Positions 13,373-20,982 of a stretch of DNA of 64,000 nt are shown in pieces; position 1 is the first letter of the stretch; every line of letters starts with the position of its first letter. The notes beneath the pieces were generated by a model. It saw nothing but the letters and a program-made list of their open reading frames with translations, was not told where the DNA came from and did no database searches. Source of the stretch: Isoptericola cucumis (GTDB lineage Bacteria; Actinomycetota; Actinomycetes; Actinomycetales; Cellulomonadaceae); the NCBI RefSeq assembly GCF_014635665.1, contig NZ_BMDG01000009.1:1-64000 (forward strand), read 5' to 3'. A program made the position numbers and the translations under genes.

Positions 13373-13630
13373 TCAGGCCTCGACCAGCAGCTCGCGCCGG
13401 CGCAGCTCGGCGAGGAACGCCTCCGTGTCGCGGGCGGCGACCGCACGATCGACCCCGTACTCGGCGACGAGCGCCGCGGTCAGGTCCTCGGCGGACCGCT
13501 CCGCCTGGAGGAGCTTGGCGACGAGCGCGCCGCTGCCGTTCGTCGTGAGATATGTCGACGACGCGAGGTCGAGGATGACCAGCTCGCCGTCGATCTCCTG
13601 CCAGGTGACGCCGTCCTCGCGCAGCCGCAT
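13373..13630 (-). CDS. lasB1: PqqD-like RiPP recognition element (lasso B1)
   Basis: The 85-residue product is MRLREDGVTWQEIDGELVILDLASSTYLTTNGSGALVAKLLQ (split: start to LVILDL, then ASSTYLTTNGSGALVAKL), a winged-helix PqqD domain with the usual DLASSTYLTTN strand-turn. In lasso-peptide clusters this stand-alone protein binds the precursor leader and delivers it to the B2 protease. It is divergent from the precursor gene and shares a palindromic control region with it. Its -10 box is TATCCT (13687-13682). The 36-bp gap to the GH39-like gene (convergent) contains three GGCTCAGG-type repeats but no obvious terminator. Confidence 0.85.
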   Translation of the reverse strand: MRLREDGVTWQEIDGELVILDLASSTYLTTNGSGALVAKLLQAERSAEDLTAALVAEYGVDRAVAARDTEAFLAELRRRELLVEA

Positions 13631-13681
13631 CGTCGTGCCTCTCGTCGTCGGCGGGTCCGGCCTCGCGCCGGACGTCGAGTC

Positions 13682-13746
13682 GAGGATAGGCAGCCGACGG
13701 GCCGCTCGACGGTGCGGGGCCGCGGTTTCACCCGGCGCCGGGTGAA
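13682..13746 (-). promoter_or_regulatory. lasB1 promoter and 22-bp perfect palindrome
   Basis: A perfect 22-bp palindrome occupies 13725-13746 (each arm TTTCACCCGGC). Read on the minus strand, its GGGTGAAA half begins 45 nt before a TATCCT -10 box (13687-13682) for lasB1. It is the best-conserved copy of the GGGTGAA element in the window and a likely dimeric operator. Confidence 0.6.
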
Positions 13747-13760
13747 AGGCCGCGGGCCAG

Positions 13761-13812
13761 CGGGTGACATCGCCGCGGAGCGCTTGACCGGCCGTGCGGG
13801 CCGGGCGACGTT
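13761..13812 (+). promoter_or_regulatory. lasA promoter region
   Basis: GGGTGACA (13761-13768) lies 22 bp downstream of the GGGTGAAA half of the palindrome and 46 nt before a weak -10-like GACGTT (13807-13812). A TTGACC at 13783-13788, 18 bp before that box, could be a -35 element. Confidence 0.4.
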
Positions 13813-13849
13813 GAACGCGTCCTGCACGCACGAGAGGAAGGAGCCTCCC

Positions 13850-13963
13850 ATGTACGAGGCACCGCGCATCACCGAGGTGGGTTCGGTCAAGGACGTCACG
13901 CTGGAGCAGCAGTGGGCCTTCGACTTCGACGGCGACCTGTTCCACAAGGGCAACGCGTCCTGA
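13850..13963 (+). CDS. lasA: Lasso peptide precursor
   Basis: A 37-residue peptide. The leader starts MYEAPRITEVGSVKDVTL and shows the actinobacterial lasso pattern Y2-x2-P5 ... G11 ... T17, with the conserved Thr at the penultimate leader position if cleavage follows Leu18. The core would then be EQQWAFDFDGDLFHKGNAS, with Asp7 or Asp9 as macrolactam acceptor. A Glu at core position 1 is unusual. Cleavage after Gln21 would give a Trp1 core with Asp8 as acceptor. The peptide ends in Ser, matching the kinase encoded four genes on. A strong GAGGAAGGAG ribosome site (13834-13843) precedes the ATG. The maturation genes follow on the same strand after a hairpin. Confidence 0.82.
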   Translation: MYEAPRITEVGSVKDVTLEQQWAFDFDGDLFHKGNAS

Positions 13964-13973
13964 CCCCAGGCGC

Positions 13974-14008
13974 GGTGCCGGCCCTCCGACGGTGGAGGGA
14001 CCGGCGCC
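13974..14008 (+). terminator. Attenuator-like hairpin between lasA and lasC
   Basis: A 14-bp stem (13974-13987 with 13994-13999 and 14001-14008, one bulged A at 14000) has a 6-nt loop and no T-run. In RiPP operons such a structure commonly lets the precursor mRNA be made in excess over the enzymes, by partial termination or 3'-end protection. It also argues against the in-frame GTG at 13992 being the lasC start, since that codon lies in the hairpin. Confidence 0.55.
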
Positions 14009-14036
14009 GTGTCGTCTCGACAACATCGGCTGGGAC

Positions 14037-15194
14037 ATGACGACCTTTTACCGTCCGACGGCGTTCGAGACCGCGGCGTGCTGGCTGCCGGGGCTGGTCG
14101 AGCCCGCCGCCCCCGCCGGCGCGGTCAGGCGCGACCCGCTCGACGAGCTCAAGGACGCGGTCCGGCGGTCGAGCGACGGACGGCCCGTCGCCGTCACCTT
14201 CTCGGGCGGCCGCGACTCCTCCGCCGTGCTCGCCGTGGCCACCGCGGTCTCGCGCGAGGACGGGCTCCCGGACCCGGTGCCCGTGACGTTCTGCTACCCG
14301 GGCGTCGCGGAGGCGGACGAGACCGACTGGCAGGAACGCGTCGTCGCGCACCTGGGCCTGTCGACGTGGCGGCGCCTCACCGTCGAGGACGAGAACGACC
14401 TCCTGGGGCGCGAGGCGCAGGCGAGCCTGCTGCGCCGCGGTCCGCTGTTCCCCGCGACGATGCACGTCAAGGACGCGATGCTCCGGGGGCTCGCCGGCCG
14501 CGTGGTGCTCACCGGCGAGGGCGGTGACGAGGTCTTCGGCGACCGTCGTGCCCGCGCACTGCTGCGCACCGCACGTGAGCGCGCGCGGCCGGGGACGCCC
14601 CGGCGCGCCGCCCTCGGCTCGCTGCTGCCCGCGCCGGTGCGCCGGCGCCGCGAGCACGCCGAGGTCCGGCGGAGCGTCGCTGCGCTGCCGTGGCTGACGG
14701 GCGCGACCGGTGAGCGCCTCGCGGACGCGATCGCCCGGGACGCCGCCGCCGAGCCGCTGTCGTACGCCGGTGGGCTGCGCTGGGTGCGCCGCCGCCGGGC
14801 GGGCCGGGTGTTCCTCCGCACGTACGGGCAGGTGGCCGCCGAGCACGACGTGGTGCTCGCGCACCCGCTCCTGGACGACGGCTTCCTCCGTTCGCTGGGG
14901 CGTCGCTTCCCCTGGGGGTTCACCGACCGGACCGCCGGCATGCGGGCCGTCTTCGGCCCGCTGCTGCCCGACGCCGTCTGCGCCCGGTCGAGCAAGGCGT
15001 CGTTCAACCGCGCGTACCTCGGCTCCGCGACCCGCGAGTTCGCCGCCCGGTGGGACGGCGAGGGCGTCGACCCGGAGCTGGTCGACGTCGACGCGCTGCG
15101 GGCCGCCTGGCTCTCCGGGTACCCGCCCGGCCCGACGAGCCTGCTGCTCCAGCAGGCGTGGCTCGCGTCGGTCGGCGCCCCGGTGCCGCCGTGA
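14037..15194 (+). CDS. lasC: Lasso macrolactam synthetase (asparagine synthetase-like, C protein)
   Basis: The 385-residue product belongs to the asparagine synthetase B superfamily. The ATP-pyrophosphatase loop SGGRDSS is at about 56-62 and the second nucleotide motif is LTGEGGDEVFGDRR near 160. In lasso biosynthesis this enzyme adenylates the ring Asp/Glu side chain and couples it to the core N-terminus. The protein begins almost directly with the synthetase domain. The N-terminal Ntn glutaminase-like domain found in many roughly 600-residue C proteins is absent. The ATG at 14037 has only a weak GGGA site, so translation may depend on the upstream hairpin context. The stop overlaps the B2 start (GTGA). 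Confidence 0.85.
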   Translation: MTTFYRPTAFETAACWLPGLVEPAAPAGAVRRDPLDELKDAVRRSSDGRPVAVTFSGGRDSSAVLAVATAVSREDGLPDPVPVTFCYPGVAEADETDWQERVVAHLGLSTWRRLTVEDENDLLGREAQASLLRRGPLFPATMHVKDAMLRGLAGRVVLTGEGGDEVFGDRRARALLRTARERARPGTPRRAALGSLLPAPVRRRREHAEVRRSVAALPWLTGATGERLADAIARDAAAEPLSYAGGLRWVRRRRAGRVFLRTYGQVAAEHDVVLAHPLLDDGFLRSLGRRFPWGFTDRTAGMRAVFGPLLPDAVCARSSKASFNRAYLGSATREFAARWDGEGVDPELVDVDALRAAWLSGYPPGPTSLLLQQAWLASVGAPVPP

Positions 15195-15631
15195 CGGCGG
15201 CGGGAGCGTTCCGCCGGCTCGGCGCCGTCCCGCTCGCGGTGTGGTTCCTCGCGTCCGCGCTGGTCCTGGAGGCACGGCTGCGGCGCTGGGACCTGGCCCG
15301 GGTCGCGCAGCACTACGGGCTCGGCCTGCTGTCCACCCCGGGGGAGTCCCTCGGGGACCTCGACCTCGCCGGCCTCGGCGCCCGCGAGGTGCGGGAGCTG
15401 CGGGTGCTGCGCCGCGTCCTGCGGCTGCCCGGGGTCAACGGCACCTGCCTGCGCTCCACGGTGCTCGCGGGCCGCGTGCTGCGCGCGCGGCACCCGGCGC
15501 TCGTGCTGGGCGTCGCCAAGACCGGCGGCGTCGTCCGCGCCCACGCGTGGCTGCGGATCGGCCGCCACGACCTCGACCTGGACCGTGGGACGGGATTCCG
15601 CCCCCTCGTCGTCGACCACCAAGGAGCGTGA
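15191..15631 (+). CDS. lasB2: Lasso leader peptidase (transglutaminase-like B2)
   Basis: The 146-residue product is a B2-type cysteine protease. The catalytic Cys86 sits in GVNGTCLRSTVLAGRVL, His118 in VVRAHAWLRIG, and the acid is Asp127 or Asp129 in RHDLDLD. This is the order of the transglutaminase-like triad. It removes the leader before or during ring closure, guided by the separate RRE protein encoded at 13373-13630. The GTG start overlaps the lasC stop, showing tight coupling. The length matches stand-alone B2 proteins. Confidence 0.88.
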   Translation: MTAAGAFRRLGAVPLAVWFLASALVLEARLRRWDLARVAQHYGLGLLSTPGESLGDLDLAGLGAREVRELRVLRRVLRLPGVNGTCLRSTVLAGRVLRARHPALVLGVAKTGGVVRAHAWLRIGRHDLDLDRGTGFRPLVVDHQGA

Positions 15632-15636
15632 CCGCC

Positions 15637-16626
15637 GTGGACCGCCAGCTGCTGTACGGCCTCGTCGTCGAGGCGCCGTTCGACCTGCACCAGGACCGGC
15701 GCGACGGCGGCGCGCGACCGGCGGACGTCGTCGTCACGACGGGCCCGGGCACCGACCAGCGCACCGTGCCGACGGGTCGGGAGATCCTGCACCACGCCGT
15801 CGCCGACGACCCCTGGTACACGGCGTGGGACCTCGGCGCGGACGGCCACCTCCTGCGGTTCCACGGCGCGTGCGACTTCGAGGTCTCCGCGGACCTCCGC
15901 GACGTGGTGCTCCGGGAGTCGGACGGCGTGGACCCCGGCCTGAGCCGGGTGCTCACGACGGGCGGGATGCTCGCCTTCCAGCTCGCGCTGCGCGGCGAGA
16001 TCGTGCTGCACGCCAGCGCCGTCGAGGACGACGAGGGTGTCCTCGCCTTCGTCGGGTACTCGGGCATGGGCAAGTCGACGATGGCGACGCTGATGTGCGC
16101 CGACGGTGCCGCGCTCGTCACGGACGACGTCCTGCGGCTGGACCGCGACGGCGACGGCTTCGCGGCCCGGCTGGGGGCGACCGAGGTCCGCCTGCGCAAG
16201 GGGGCCGACACGCTGGTCGACCGCTTCGCCGGCCGCGCGCCGGGCCGGCGGGTCAGCGCCGACGCCCGCCACGTGCTGCAGCTCGGGGCCGGCGCGCGCG
16301 ACGGCCGGCGCCTGCGCGCGATCGTCGTGCCGCGGCCCGACCGCGGCGGCGGCGACCTCGCCGTGTGCCGTCGCACGGGGACGGCGGCGCTCCTGGAGCT
16401 GCTCCACTACCCGCGCCTGCACGGCTGGCGGGACGCACGGCTGCAGAGCGAGCAGCTGGGTCACATGGCCGACGTCGCGCGCGGCGTGCCCGTGCTCGTC
16501 GCCGACGTGCCGTGGGGGCCGCCGTTCGGCCCGACGCTGGGGGCCCGGCTGGCCGAGGCGGTGTCGCGCGCGGTGGCGCCGTCGTCGGACCCCGCGCTGG
16601 TGGGCGCGGACGTCCCCGCCAGGTAG
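15637..16626 (+). CDS. HPr kinase-like lasso peptide kinase
   Basis: The 329-residue product has a C-terminal HPrK/PckA-type P-loop domain. The Walker A motif is FVGYSGMGKSTMATLM (about 139-150), preceded by GEIVLHASAV and followed by LVTDDVLRLD, the acidic motif of HPr kinases. Homologues in the paeninodin (PadeK) and pseudomycoidin clusters phosphorylate the C-terminal Ser of the lasso peptide; the precursor here ends in Ser. The start at GTG 15637 is chosen for its AAGGAG site 10 nt upstream; a GTG at 15628 overlapping the B2 stop is the alternative. The 3' end overlaps the convergent exporter gene by 166 bp. Confidence 0.78.
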   Translation: MDRQLLYGLVVEAPFDLHQDRRDGGARPADVVVTTGPGTDQRTVPTGREILHHAVADDPWYTAWDLGADGHLLRFHGACDFEVSADLRDVVLRESDGVDPGLSRVLTTGGMLAFQLALRGEIVLHASAVEDDEGVLAFVGYSGMGKSTMATLMCADGAALVTDDVLRLDRDGDGFAARLGATEVRLRKGADTLVDRFAGRAPGRRVSADARHVLQLGAGARDGRRLRAIVVPRPDRGGGDLAVCRRTGTAALLELLHYPRLHGWRDARLQSEQLGHMADVARGVPVLVADVPWGPPFGPTLGARLAEAVSRAVAPSSDPALVGADVPAR

Positions 16627-18440
16627 GACCGCGCCTGGACGGTGAACATCTCGGCGTAGGCGCCGTCGAGCGCCATCAGCTCGTCGTGGCTGCCCTCCTC
16701 GACGACGGCGCCGTCGTCGAGGACGACGATGCGGTCCGCGGAGCGCACGGTCGAGAAGCGGTGCGAGACGAAGAGCGCCGTCCGCCCGTCGAGCGTGGCC
16801 CGCAGCGACGAGAACAGGTCGTGCTCGGCCAGCGGGTCCATCGCCGCCGTCGGCTCGTCGAGGATGACGAGCGCGGCGTCGCGGTAGAAGGCGCGGGCGA
16901 TCGCCACCCGCTGCCACTGGCCGCCGGACAGCTCCGTCCCCCCGGGGAACATCCGCGACAGCCGGGACTCGTAGCCGTCGGGGAGGCTCGCGAGCGCGGC
17001 GTCGACGCCCGCGACCCGGGCGGAGCGTCGCACGCGCTCGTGGTCCACCGGGACCTCGGAGCGGCCCAGCGCGACGTTCCACGTGGCGGTGTAGGCGTAG
17101 TGGACGAAGTCCTGGAAGATCACCGCGACCTGGTCGCGCACCGCCGCCCGGCGCAGCTCGGCCAGAGGACGCTCACCCCAGCGGACCTCGCCCGACGTCG
17201 GCACGTACAGCCCGGCCAGCAGCTTGGCGAGGGTGGTCTTGCCCGAGCCGTTGGCGCCGACGAGCGCCACGACCTCGCCCGGACGCAGGGCCAGGTCGAC
17301 GGCCTGCAGCGCCGGCCGTTCCGCTCCGGGATAGGTGAACGACACCTTGCGGGCGAAGACGCCGGGGAACTCCGCGGGCGGCTCGGCGACGCCCTCGGCC
17401 GTGGCAGCCGCCGCGCGCCCCTCGTCCAGGAACTCGTGCACGTCGTCGAGGAACAGCCCGGACTCGAAGATCTGCTGGACGCCGCCGAAGATGCCCTGGA
17501 TCTGACCCTGCAGCATCCGCACCGCGACGACGGCGGCGCCCGCCTCCGAGAACGAGACCGCGCCACGGGTGATGAGCCAGGCGAGCACGAGGAGCACGCC
17601 GGCCAGGACCACCGCGGCGGCGAGGTTCCCCACGCCGTGGGTGAGGGCCCGCCGGCGGACGTGCCGGCCCAGCGCGACCAGGTACGTCGCGTACAGCTCC
17701 CGGTAGCGCGACTGCAGCCACGGGGCGGACCCGAACGCCCGGATCTCCTTGGCCTCGTCGCGGGTGCTCTGCACGTAGTTGGTGTAGATGCGCTCGCGCT
17801 CGTTCGTCGTCTGGGCGACCTTGAACCCGAACTCCAGCCTGCCCTCACGCCGCCCGGTGACCAGCAGGGGCAGGCCCCCGACGGCGAGGAGCGGCAGCAG
17901 CACGGGGTGCAGCGCCACCAGGGCGGCGCCCACGCCCACCGTCGAGATCGTGGAGCCGACGAGGTCGAACACCCCCTGGGTGACCTGGAACGGCCGGGAG
18001 AGGGCGTTCACACGCACCCGTTGGAGCCGGTCGTAGAACACGGCCGACTCGAACTGCTCGAGCGGGACGCTCGTCGAGACGGCCTGGACGTCTTCGGCCA
18101 TCAGCCGCGCGACGTGCTCGCCGAGCACCCGGCGCACCGAGACCTGGAGCCCGCCGGCCACCGTGGTCACGGCGGTGAGCGCGGCCAGCGCGATCACCGG
18201 CCCCACGACCGACCGCAACGTGCCGGAGCCGTCCGAGAGGCCGAGCAGCACGTCGAGCAGCGACGCGACGACCAGCACCTGGCCCGCCAGGGCGGCGGCG
18301 ACGAGGACCTGCAGGGCGAGCATGACGACGAACGACGCGCGGCTCGCGCGCCACGAGACCGCGAGCGACCCGCGGACGTGGCGCAGCAGGCGCCGCGACC
18401 TCGCCTCGCCCGCGTCCCCGCCCGCCGTCGTCTCCGACAC
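16461..18440 (-). CDS. lasD: Lasso peptide ABC exporter (fused TMD-NBD)
   Basis: The 659-residue half-transporter of the ABCB/MsbA type has six helices within about residues 30-320. The nucleotide-binding domain has Walker A GANGSGKTT (about 396-404), signature LSGGQWQRVAIA and Walker B LVILDEPTAAMDP. It should act as a homodimer to export the mature peptide and confer immunity. The last 55 residues after QARSYL are Ser/Thr/Ala-rich, have no family counterpart, and lie antisense to the end of the kinase gene. The GTG at 18440 has GGAG upstream. A TAGCGT -10 box (18509-18504) lies 45 nt from a GGGCGAAA element. Confidence 0.85.
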   Translation of the reverse strand: MSETTAGGDAGEARSRRLLRHVRGSLAVSWRASRASFVVMLALQVLVAAALAGQVLVVASLLDVLLGLSDGSGTLRSVVGPVIALAALTAVTTVAGGLQVSVRRVLGEHVARLMAEDVQAVSTSVPLEQFESAVFYDRLQRVRVNALSRPFQVTQGVFDLVGSTISTVGVGAALVALHPVLLPLLAVGGLPLLVTGRREGRLEFGFKVAQTTNERERIYTNYVQSTRDEAKEIRAFGSAPWLQSRYRELYATYLVALGRHVRRRALTHGVGNLAAAVVLAGVLLVLAWLITRGAVSFSEAGAAVVAVRMLQGQIQGIFGGVQQIFESGLFLDDVHEFLDEGRAAAATAEGVAEPPAEFPGVFARKVSFTYPGAERPALQAVDLALRPGEVVALVGANGSGKTTLAKLLAGLYVPTSGEVRWGERPLAELRRAAVRDQVAVIFQDFVHYAYTATWNVALGRSEVPVDHERVRRSARVAGVDAALASLPDGYESRLSRMFPGGTELSGGQWQRVAIARAFYRDAALVILDEPTAAMDPLAEHDLFSSLRATLDGRTALFVSHRFSTVRSADRIVVLDDGAVVEEGSHDELMALDGAYAEMFTVQARSYLAGTSAPTSAGSDDGATARDTASASRAPSVGPNGGPHGTSATSTGTPRATSAM

Positions 18441-18503
18441 TGCGATCGCTCCGTCCCGGCCGTCGCCCGAGGGCGCCCGCGCCGGCGGATGCCGGCGCCA
18501 CTC

Positions 18504-18593
18504 ACGCTAGCCGCGACCGGGCGGCCGGTGGGCGGTCCCGGCGGGATTTCGCCCGCTGGCGGGGGTCCGCCGGGCTCGGTGCGCGCCTATCGT
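18504..18593. promoter_or_regulatory. Divergent promoters of the lasso exporter and nucleotidyltransferase
   Basis: An imperfect palindrome (TTTCGCCCG at 18547-18555, CGGGGG at 18560-18565) resembles the lasB1 operator. On the minus strand its GGGCGAAA begins 45 nt before TAGCGT (18509-18504), the -10 box of the exporter. On the plus strand TATCGT (18588-18593) ends 7 nt before the GTG at 18601, implying a leaderless mRNA for the nucleotidyltransferase. Confidence 0.5.
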
Positions 18594-18600
18594 GCCGAGG

Positions 18601-19749
18601 GTGGACGGACGAACGACGGCGCGTCGACCGCTGGCCCAGCTGCTGGTCGACTCCGTCGCGCCGTCGGCCGCGCGGGGCCTCGCACCGCTCGAGAGCATCT
18701 CGCTGGAGCTGCTGGCCGACGCGGCGCAGGACCACCGGGTCCTCCCCGCGGTCGCCAAGCACGTCTCCGGGCGCCCGGACTGCCCGGAGGCGTGGCGGGC
18801 GCCGTTGCGCAGGGCGCGCGACGAGCAGGTGGTGCGGCACCTCGGGGTCCTCGCGGAGCTGTCCCGGCTCGGGGCGGTGCTCGACGGCGCCGACGTGCCG
18901 TGGGTCGTGGGCAAGGGCCCGACGGCCGCAGCGCTGTGGCCGGCGCCGGACATGCGGGAGTACTACGACCTCGACCTCTACGTGCCGCGCGCGATGTTCC
19001 GGCGTGCGGTCGGAGCGCTGGAGGACGGCGGGTGCACGGGCGAGGACCGCAACTGGCCGCTCATGGCGACGTCGCGCCGCGCCGAGTACGCGATGCGGGG
19101 CCCGCTGGGGGTGCACCTCGACCTGCACTGGGACGTCGCCGTCCCGCGCGGCACGCGACGTACCTATCGGACGGACCCGGACGCGATGATCGGCCGGCGC
19201 CGGGCGGTCGACCTGGGCGGGGGCCGGACCGCTCCTACCTTCGACCCGGTCGACACGGTGCTCGTGCTGGCGTTCCACGCCGCGCAGTGCGGCGCCGGTC
19301 GGCTCATGTGGCTCGTGGACGTGGCGCGCGCGGTCGAGGCCTGCGGTGCGGCGCGGGCCGGGATCGGGGCGCGTGCCCGGGCCATGCGGATGGAGGCGCC
19401 CGTGGGCCTCGTGCTGGACCGCGCGGCCCGGGTGCTCGGGGACCTGGGGGAGACCGGCCTGCGTCGCCGAGGCGCCCTGGGGGCGGCGACGGCGGCGCTC
19501 GACGCGCGGCACGGCTTCCCGGACCTGCCGGGGGACCGGCACCGCGCCGGCCGGCTCTACTCGAGCGCTCGGCCGCGGGCGTGGGGGACCGCGGCGGCCC
19601 TGGTGCGCGACGCGGTCGCGGACCGCAGGATCGAACGAGCGATCCGGCGCGGTGTGCCGGGCGCGGACGAGAAGGCCCTGCGGCACGACGTCCCCGACCC
19701 CGCCGCGCGGGCGGACTACTTCCGGTTCGTGGACTCGGGTGCCGGCTGA
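18601..19749 (+). CDS. Nucleotidyltransferase family protein associated with lasso cluster
   Basis: The 382-residue product belongs to the NTP_transf_5 group. The nucleotidyltransferase signature is WVVGKGPTAAALWP followed by the metal-binding pair in YYDLDLYVPRAMF (about 123), with HLDLHWDV further on. Such proteins recur beside HPrK-like kinases in lasso clusters. In the pseudomycoidin system the corresponding protein (PsmN) is reported to extend the phosphorylated C-terminus with sugars. A second tailoring step after the kinase is therefore inferred here. The GTG at 18601 is preferred because a TATCGT -10 box ends 7 nt before it; the longer form from GTG 18592 would overlap that box. Confidence 0.72.
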   Translation: MDGRTTARRPLAQLLVDSVAPSAARGLAPLESISLELLADAAQDHRVLPAVAKHVSGRPDCPEAWRAPLRRARDEQVVRHLGVLAELSRLGAVLDGADVPWVVGKGPTAAALWPAPDMREYYDLDLYVPRAMFRRAVGALEDGGCTGEDRNWPLMATSRRAEYAMRGPLGVHLDLHWDVAVPRGTRRTYRTDPDAMIGRRRAVDLGGGRTAPTFDPVDTVLVLAFHAAQCGAGRLMWLVDVARAVEACGAARAGIGARARAMRMEAPVGLVLDRAARVLGDLGETGLRRRGALGAATAALDARHGFPDLPGDRHRAGRLYSSARPRAWGTAAALVRDAVADRRIERAIRRGVPGADEKALRHDVPDPAARADYFRFVDSGAG

Positions 19750-19764
19750 CCCGCGGCGACGGCC

Positions 19765-20982
19765 TCAGCGCACTCCCACCAGCGTCCGGTCCAGCTCCGC
19801 CTGGACGTGCGCGGCGATCTCGAGCGACGCCGTCGCGGCGGGCGACGGCGCGTTGACGACGTGCACCTGCCGCGGCGCGGTGCGCAGCAGGAAGTCGTCG
19901 ACGAGGGAGCCGTCGCGGTGCAGCGCCTGCGCCCGGACGCCGGCGGGCGCGGGGTGCAGGTCGTCGGCGGTGGTGCCGGGCAGCATGCGGGCGACGGCGG
20001 AGGCGAACAGGGTGCGCGACATCGAGCGCGCCACCTCCTCGGCGCCCGGCACGAGGTTGCGGCCGGCGAGCCGCCACAGGCCGGGCCAGGAGAGCGAGTC
20101 GGCGACGTCGCGCAGGGAGACGTCGCGGCGGCGGTACCCCTCGCGGGCCAGGGCGAGCACGGCGTTCGGCCCGGCGTGCACCCCGCCGGTGACGCCGCGC
20201 GTCAGGTGCACGCCCAGGAACGGGAACCGCGGGTCGGGCACCGGGTAGACGAGGCCGCGCACGCGGTCCGCCGCGGCGGGCGCGAGGTCGAAGTACTCGC
20301 CGCGGAAGGGCACGATCCGCGCGCCGGGGTCGACGCCGCAGGCGAGCGCGAGCCGGTCGGCGTGCAGGCCGCCGCAGACGACCAGCGCGTCGGCGACCAG
20401 CTCGGACGTCCCGTGCCCGCCGCCCGCGGTGGTCTCCACCTCGGCGCGTACCTCCTGACCGACGGTGCGCGCGCGGCGCAGGGCGCGGCCGAGCAGCAGC
20501 GTCCCGCCGGCGTCGGTCACCTGGCGGGCGAGGACGTCGCAGACGCCGCGGTAGTCGACCACGCCGGTGGTCTCGACGCGCAGCGCCCCCACGCACCTGA
20601 TCTCCGGCTCGTGCTCCCGCGCCTCGGCGGGGCTGAGCTCCCGCACCGGCACGCCGTTCGCGGCCCCCCGCGCGGCGAGCGTGCGCAGCCGGTCGAGCTC
20701 GTCCGCGGCGGTCGCGACGACGAGCTTGCCGGGGGTCGCGACGGCGACGCCGTGCTCGGCGGCGAAGCGCGTCATGGACGCGGCGCCCGCGGTGCCGAGC
20801 CGGGCCTTCAGACTCCCGGGCGCGTAGTAGAGGCCGGAGTGGATGACGCCGGAGTTGCGCCCGGTCTGGTGGTGGGCGAGGCCCGGTTCCTTGTCGATCA
20901 CCGTGACCTCGTCGCCGCGACGCGCGAGGCGTGCCGCGGTGGCGAGCCCGATGATCCCGGCGCCGACGACGAGTACCCGCAC
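19765..20982 (-). CDS. lhgO: L-2-hydroxyglutarate oxidase
   Basis: A 405-residue FAD-dependent oxidoreductase of the DAO/LhgO family. The N-terminal dinucleotide fold is VVGAGIIGLATAARLARRG. The family hallmarks QTGRNSGVIHSGLYYAPGS and FPFLGVHLTRGV are present. It oxidises L-2-hydroxyglutarate to 2-oxoglutarate and passes electrons to the quinone pool in homologues. GTG 20982 has a GGAGGG ribosome site. It stands alone; the convergent gene on its left ends 15 bp away. A relation to the lasso cluster is not evident. Confidence 0.88.
   Translation of the reverse strand: MRVLVVGAGIIGLATAARLARRGDEVTVIDKEPGLAHHQTGRNSGVIHSGLYYAPGSLKARLGTAGAASMTRFAAEHGVAVATPGKLVVATAADELDRLRTLAARGAANGVPVRELSPAEAREHEPEIRCVGALRVETTGVVDYRGVCDVLARQVTDAGGTLLLGRALRRARTVGQEVRAEVETTAGGGHGTSELVADALVVCGGLHADRLALACGVDPGARIVPFRGEYFDLAPAAADRVRGLVYPVPDPRFPFLGVHLTRGVTGGVHAGPNAVLALAREGYRRRDVSLRDVADSLSWPGLWRLAGRNLVPGAEEVARSMSRTLFASAVARMLPGTTADDLHPAPAGVRAQALHRDGSLVDDFLLRTAPRQVHVVNAPSPAATASLEIAAHVQAELDRTLVGVR

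Follow-up and report, generated by a model that had tools for sequence, protein, structure and literature searches.

Phosphorylated lasso peptides are described, in the literature excerpts consulted, from the Bacillota, Proteobacteria and Bradymonadales. Their phosphate is added by HPrK-like kinases, and those reported in the cited excerpts to act on the C-terminal serine are the paeninodin kinase, ThcoK, SyanK and PsmK (PMC9266682, PMC8498205). BsfK and LppK, by contrast, phosphorylate Ser3 in the passages available (PMC10368454, PMC13381572), so the C-terminal serine is not a universal target. The initial annotation of the DNA studied here had taken the HPrK-like kinases of the paeninodin and pseudomycoidin systems to act on the C-terminal serine, which agrees with these accounts. 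In pseudomycoidin, the excerpted accounts describe a phosphate on the C-terminal serine, followed by hexoses (PMC9266682, PMC8498205). The annotation credited these sugars to the nucleotidyltransferase; hexoses on the phosphate are indeed described, but whether PsmN itself adds them is left open in the passage of the review (PMC9266682). Linear phosphopeptides (LPP) and paeninodins are both said to be restricted to the Bacillota in the part of the source cited (PMC13381572).

Here, we analyse a lasso-type gene cluster from the actinobacterium Isoptericola cucumis. The cluster is real and complete, and it has three features that the initial annotation overlooked: a cyclase without the N-terminal region, a predicted ring start at Glu1, and membership of a widespread group of kinase-bearing actinobacterial clusters.

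Gene content and organisation

The window, a stretch of 64,000 nucleotides, is taken from contig NZ_BMDG01000009.1 (C9). The genome measures 4.46 Mb, is split into 29 contigs and has an estimated completeness of 99.96%. The seven genes span 13373-19749 in the order B1, A, C, B2, K, D and N, with B1 and D on the minus strand (Table 1). All lie where the annotation had placed them and match Pfam or NCBIfam models, which upholds its proposal of a complete seven-gene lasso-type cluster.

Table 1. Features of the lasso-type cluster in the window
Feature	Position	Strand	Remarks
B1, PqqD-family stand-alone RiPP recognition element	13373..13630	-	85 aa; divergent from precursor gene
A, leader MYEAPRITEVGSVKDVTL	13850..13903	+	Y2, P5, G11, T at -2; from translation
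A, core EQQWAFDFDGDLFHKGNAS, stop included	13904..13963	+	boundary inferred from the T(-2) rule
C, asparagine-synthetase-like cyclase	14037..15194	+	385 aa; SGGRDSS at residue 56
B2, transglutaminase-like leader peptidase	15191..15631	+	Cys86/His118/Asp129
K, HPrK-like kinase	15628..16626	+	H128; P-loop G143-x2-G-x-GKS150; D166-D167
D, ABC exporter, fused permease/ATPase	16461..18440	-	ABC_tran 1e-31 (Pfam)
N, NTP_transf_5 protein	18592..19749	+	385 aa; K108-G109, D126-L-D128

By their coordinates, C and B2, as well as B2 and K, overlap by 4 bases, an operon-like arrangement. The open frame of D enters the 3' end of K by 166 nt, and the C-terminal tail of the exporter is encoded antisense to the kinase at window positions 16461-16626. 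Downstream of N lies a gene for an FAD-dependent oxidoreductase (19765-20982, minus strand), with an 85-86% identical match in four of eight same-genus stretches compared; one of these matches, in L024, is limited to 86 residues where the contig ends. The gene upstream of the cluster has a match in one of the eight.

B1, B2 and C occur together, each scoring below its own NCBIfam cut-off. B1 matches PqqD (Pfam, 4e-17) and lasso_PqqD_Strm (NCBIfam, 5e-13; 49 bits against a cut-off of 70), and its best PDB chain is TbiB1 (5v1u, E 7e-10). B2 matches Transglut_core3 (Pfam, 3e-8) and reaches 31.7 bits against an NCBIfam cut-off of 33. The catalytic triad announced for B2 is present, with Asp129 as its acidic member. 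Among ungapped rows of the family alignment, Cys86 is found in 46/49, His118 in 46/47 and Asp129 in 45/51, 17-21 of the 68 rows being gapped at those positions. The exporter D matches MsbA-like and peptide-export models of NCBIfam below their cut-offs. N matches NTP_transf_5 (Pfam, 2e-38); across 45 rows, K108 is retained in 38 and G109, D126 and D128 in 39, most of the others being gapped. A PDB sequence search with N gave no match at E 1, and its structure, predicted from three rows (window, L020, L021), has a mean pLDDT of 44.5, too low to support a comparison of folds.

The precursor and its predicted ring

The precursor has 37 residues and matches lasso_leader_L3 (NCBIfam) at 1.5e-6, above the cut-off, in accord with the Y-x2-P...G...T leader read from the sequence initially. 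It carries the lasso-type combination of Y-x2-P and T(-2), and a threonine at -2 is the standard landmark of lasso leader cleavage. With the cut placed by this rule, the core has Asp7 and Asp9, within the range of positions 7-9 where lasso peptides have Asp or Glu, and Ser19 is its sole hydroxyl residue (S/T/Y). Y2, P5, G11 and T17 of the leader and Asp9 of the core are invariant in the ten aligned nearest precursor rows.

The relatives help to locate the ring. Their cores read EQQFAFDYDGDLFHKGKAS in L023 and L024, EAQFDIDYDGDLFRGDRHGGGGVS in L025, EGQLALNYDGDLFRGPKDGGGGGVS in L026, EGQFALDYDGHLFRGDKEDGGLS in L027 and QNLFQGLHDSDGWIRGGENYS in L028. Position 7 is D, N or L in these stretches, while position 9 is always Asp, and a nine-residue ring between Glu1 and Asp9 is therefore predicted. 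We rejected ring closure at Asp7, where L026 has Asn. At the DNA level, two close relatives have precursor genes that depart from that of the window in 2-3 synonymous and 3 non-synonymous codons, too few changes for an informative dN/dS.

The pattern is more than chance: 67 distinct precursors were found across 56 stretches, one of which is the window's own. When the T(-2) rule is applied, 42 of the 67 have Asp at core position 9 and 25 do not. The first residue of the 42 is Ala in 21, Gly in eight, Glu in five, Gln in three, Arg in two, and Ser, Thr and Asp in one each. Leu and Trp are known as first residues of lasso peptides. Other examples observed, in the excerpt cited, are Gly, Cys, Ser and Ala, with Asn reported as the first of its kind (PMC12670498). 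A text search of the literature found no lasso peptide with Glu1, which would be unusual as a ring residue. The literature searched likewise contained no match to the core EQQWAFDFDGDLFHKGNAS, in agreement with the early impression that it is not that of a characterised lasso peptide.

A cyclase without the long N-terminal region

The N-terminal region of an ordinary lasso cyclase is amidotransferase-like. In six full-length cyclases scanned with Pfam, the Asn_synthase domain starts between residues 201 and 294; in the 385-residue cyclase of the window (P0003) it starts at residue 36 (1e-20). This means that C lacks the more than 200 N-terminal residues that give lasso cyclases their ordinary length. 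Against its NCBIfam model it scores 18 bits, with a cut-off of 525. GATase_7 was matched, below the cut-off, in two of the six full-length cyclases and in none of the other four, so the amidotransferase-like nature of the region is here partly a matter of established knowledge.

The short form is shared by the family. Among 54 family frames, a count that excludes L073 and two frames with SGGIDSS, the ATP motif reads SGGRDSS in 53 and SGGLDSS in one. The distance from the upstream stop to this motif is below 226 residues in 50 of the 54, and below 70 in six, compared with at least 226 in the 38 control frames that have a motif (two of these 38 being chance frames). The four longer family frames (L025, L027, L035 and L055) gave no amidotransferase match when scanned over their whole length, and their upstream parts overlap precursor or B1 genes; they therefore look open by chance.

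A tree of 86 cyclase domains, built after dropping five near-duplicates and rooted at the midpoint, places all 49 short cyclases on one side of a branch with support 100/100; a long-branch warning was given for L135 and L138. The full-length cyclases nearest to the short group are those of L073, L130 and L134. Kinase and NTP_transf_5 homologues also accompany the cyclases of L073 and L134; in L130, a stretch of 13 kb, NTP_transf_5 is seen without a kinase match. This midpoint-rooted topology would be consistent with one event in which the N-terminal region was lost, the kinase being already present in that lineage.

No lasso cyclase as short, or without the amidotransferase-like domain, was found in the literature searched, the primary paeninodin, pseudomycoidin and RODEO papers being outside its scope, and a PDB sequence search with C returned no match at E 0.1. 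Since the cyclase lacks a region of full-length lasso cyclases, a threaded macrolactam product is predicted, not established. If the short cyclase does close and thread its substrate, the N-terminal part of ordinary lasso cyclases would be dispensable for the chemistry. Such a result would bear on the role of that region, and would offer a smaller enzyme for engineering.

The kinase and the C-terminal serine

K matches its family models weakly, with Hpr_kinase_C at 0.001, below the cut-off, and HprK_rel_B at 6e-8 (32 bits, the cut-off being 200). It nevertheless fits the published BsfK motif with H128, G143, G146, G148, K149, S150, D166 and D167, each number being that of BsfK minus 20. Over 57 kinase rows, H128, G148 and K149 are present in all 57, G143, S150 and D166 in 56, D167 in 55 and G146 in 49. 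A PDB sequence search with K gave 16 matches, the best at E 0.15, and the structure predicted from three rows (window, L020, L021) has a mean pLDDT of 33.4, again too low for comparing folds.

The C-terminal serine recurs with the kinase. A terminal Ser is found in 57 of the 67 distinct precursors, Ser-Arg in seven and another ending in three; for the 63 whose stretch shows a kinase, these numbers are 53, seven and three. The three exceptions are found in L034, in L052 (at 11166) and in L074 (at 7951).

For comparison, control loci were collected around lasso B2 genes (NF033537), which are present in 69 of 296 genomes of the class. Sixty of 87 places were fetched, 56 of them had no kinase match, and 30 credible precursors were picked by eye from the kinase-free loci. 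Not one of these 30 ends in Ser (Fisher p 4e-16, a value that overstates the contrast because the rows are related). A chance frame in L121, excluded from the 30, does end in Ser. The four control loci with a kinase match contain two clear precursors, both ending in Ser (L123, ...IGIGS; L134, ...LPLS); the one candidate in L135, which ends in Asn, is doubtful, and in L124 no precursor was seen. Nearly all kinase-positive rows belong to one cyclase clade, and the contrast therefore does not stem from independent events.

Core position 3 of the window is Gln. Judging from these C-termini (57/67 against 0/30), the kinase most likely targets the C-terminal Ser, as had been anticipated.

Distribution of the short-cyclase family

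The cluster is not a singleton but a member of a widespread actinobacterial group. The nearest named relatives of the cyclase, in Krasilnikoviella flava and Isoptericola sp. QY 916, are 77-78% identical to it. A single-protein search of genome contigs returned two loci. Counting the genome under study at every rank, matches were found in 11 of 18 genomes of the genus, 17 of 150 of the family (two of them weak or partial), at least 21 of 396 of the order, at least 20 of 345 of the class (one being a distant full-length match) and at least 3 of 346 of the phylum; the last three are lower bounds because only five candidates per genome were scored. In plasmid searches, the precursor had one match at E 9 and the short cyclase none.

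The 56 stretches, the window's own among them, were chosen by cyclase similarity and searched with iterative profiles that started from the window's proteins. Because the same set served to train these profiles, weak matches are partly circular. The kinase is found in 53 of the 56, including all 50 of at least 15 kb; it is missing from a slice of 11 kb, from one of 10 kb at the start of a contig and from a contig of 4.2 kb. In 48 of the 50 long stretches the cyclase reaches at least 200 bits, the others being L037, cut by a contig end, and L073, which is full-length. NTP_transf_5 is above threshold in 38 of these 50. With a kinase in every long enough stretch, a requirement of phosphorylation for cyclisation becomes testable.

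Several branches of the family differ from the window in their precursors. Seven end in Gly-Ser-Arg (L045:6567, L045:8173, L046:11123, L047:13131, L049:8280, L032:9772 and L036:8221), and trimming of their C-terminal Arg is possible. In the L045 pair, L046, L047 and L049 the first acidic residue is Asp10 under the T(-2) rule, which would point either to ten-residue rings or to leader cleavage shifted downstream by one residue; in L032 and L036 there is an Asp8 as well. Another branch has a conserved Ser-Asp-Gly motif with Asp at 10 or 11 (L052:10996 and 11166, L053, L054, L055 and L071). Here, kinase and cyclase lie on opposite strands, and in L052-L054 two such precursors are adjacent. Long precursors with cores of 41-43 aa and a CK-x-G-x-G-x-D-N motif are found in L029 (9512), L031 (10138), L038 (9972) and L076 (939). 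They have no acidic residue at 7-9, and their first acceptor past position 1 is Asp13; judged by this spacing they are unlikely to be ordinary lasso peptides, despite adjoining a short cyclase.

Gene numbers vary as well. In the loci of family f38 (L056, L057 and L059-L066), two different precursor genes lie between B1 and a single cyclase; each precursor has Asp at core position 9 and ends in Ser. L031, L047 and L074 each contain two short cyclase genes, with a precursor near each.

An Isoptericola genome with a lasso cluster is mentioned in the excerpt of one paper (PMC10425560). The literature searched, which left key primary papers outside its scope, contained no actinobacterial phosphorylated lasso peptides, and it is possible that genome-mining tables already mention these clusters. 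The group would add a widespread set of Actinomycetes to the Bacillota, Proteobacteria and Bradymonadales, from which the excerpts consulted describe phosphorylated lasso peptides.

Proposed pathway and alternatives

We propose, as the probable reading, that the cluster makes a C-terminally phosphorylated lasso-type peptide with a Glu1-Asp9 ring and a phosphate on Ser19, where it is probably processed further. Observed in this analysis are the gene content, the catalytic residues, the conservation of Asp9 and of the terminal Ser, and the lack of the long N-terminal region in the cyclase. Characterised systems provide the model for the order of steps, ring closure, threading, the number of phosphates and the action of the NTP_transf_5 protein. 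By this analogy, B1 would bind the YEAP leader, and the HPrK-like kinase would add one or more phosphates at Ser19 of the precursor. B1 would then pass the precursor to B2, which would cut after TL. The short cyclase would use ATP to adenylate Asp9 and link this residue to the Glu1 amine, which yields a nine-residue ring followed by a ten-residue loop and tail, GDLFHKGNAS, with Phe13, His14 and Lys15 as likely plugs. The NTP_transf_5 protein may then decorate the Ser19 phosphate by transferring a nucleotidyl or sugar group, and the ABC protein would export the product. This second tailoring step is the weakest part of the scheme because the review, in the passage cited, leaves sugar addition by PsmN open (PMC9266682).

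The missing cyclase region allows a different outcome, in which C closes the macrolactam but the product stays branched-cyclic and unthreaded, the region being needed for threading. Its absence from C, compared with the full-length lasso cyclases examined, would fit such a product, as would the spread of usable acidic residues from position 7 to 13 across the family precursors under one cleavage rule; known lasso rings have 7-9 residues in the excerpt cited (PMC13352647). We consider this unlikely, however, as Asp9 is fixed in the window's own group as in nine-residue lasso rings, bulky plug-like residues (Phe13, His14 and Lys15) follow the ring, and leader, B1 and B2 are all of lasso type. 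A shifted leader cut, for example TLE|Q with an eight-residue ring, would remove Glu1 from the ring altogether. Glu is not among the first residues named in the excerpt of PMC12670498, and a cut one residue later would restore Asp9 in some other branches of the family. Yet Gln1 would be no more usual than Glu1, and the standard T at -2 places Asp at position 9 in ten of ten aligned nearest rows, which leaves the shifted cut quite improbable.

Two further readings were rejected. LPP clusters of the Bacillota share with the window an RRE, an HprK-like kinase, an NTP transferase and an MsbA-like exporter (PMC13381572, in the passages available), and the product could on these grounds be a linear phosphopeptide, with another role for the cyclase homologue. 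LPP systems, however, have a signal-peptidase-like protease and no cyclase, whereas the window has B2, a cyclase that retains its SGGRDSS ATP motif and a conserved acidic ring-closing residue, so that a linear product is very improbable. Decay of the cluster in this strain, suggested by the overlap of D with the 3' end of K, is hardly plausible at all: every frame is open, none of the catalytic residues examined has been lost, and relatives have the gene set too.

Beyond the threaded, phosphorylated peptide that we favour, the family may form a separate actinobacterial class of macrolactam synthetases. In this scenario, one loss of the region from a kinase-associated full-length ancestor would have produced enzymes that act on C-terminally phosphorylated precursors alone, the phosphate serving substrate recognition instead of being a late decoration. 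Such enzymes would tolerate Glu, Gln or Arg as the first core residue, and those of some branches would close rings of more than nine residues. We regard this broader proposal as doubtful.

Comparison with known systems

Paeninodin-like systems share A, B1, B2, C, an HPrK-like kinase, an exporter and a C-terminal Ser with the window (PMC9266682, PMC8498205, as excerpted). In line with this, K has the catalytic H, P-loop and DD expected of a paeninodin-like kinase, and the precursor ends in ...NAS. The sole Bacillota cluster compared directly is L138, a paeninodin-like cluster on a plasmid of Paenibacillus cellulosilyticus (NZ_CP054613.1, 4174-11426), for which the plasmid collection's table has no annotated gene. 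It resembles the window in its NTP_transf_5 protein, homologous K, Asp9 (T(-2) rule) and a precursor ending in ...TVTIS. Its gene order (N, C, A, K, B1, B2, D) is different, and its full-length cyclase has 642 aa with GATase_7 at 7e-19, in contrast to the 385 aa without GATase_7 in the window. The leaders differ as well, with WxxP in L138 and YxxP in the window. A Trp-type leader is described for paeninodin RREs in the cited excerpt (PMC13381572), whereas the window has YEAP, with Tyr.

In pseudomycoidin, from Bacillus pseudomycoides (Bacillota), kinase and nucleotidyltransferase genes adjoin the lasso genes as they do in the window, in the excerpted accounts. The Bsf cluster of Bradymonas sediminis is alike in A, B1, B2, C, D, kinase and nucleotidyltransferase, and has the same kinase motif. 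According to the passages seen, BsfK acts on Ser3, and the Bsf core ends in Asp and is preceded by Ile at -2; the window has T(-2) and Gln3 instead. LPP systems have the RRE, HprK-like kinase, NTP transferase and MsbA-like exporter noted above, but differ in having no cyclase, an SpI-like protease and phosphorylation at Ser3 (PMC13381572, excerpt); the window has both B2 and C. The full-length actinobacterial clusters L073 and L134 share the kinase and NTP_transf_5 homologues, and their precursors end in NVS and PLS. They differ in their ordinary-length cyclases with an SGGVDSS motif, that of L134 with a partial GATase_7 match just below the cut-off. Set beside these systems, the cluster of I. 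cucumis consists of ordinary parts in an unusual combination.
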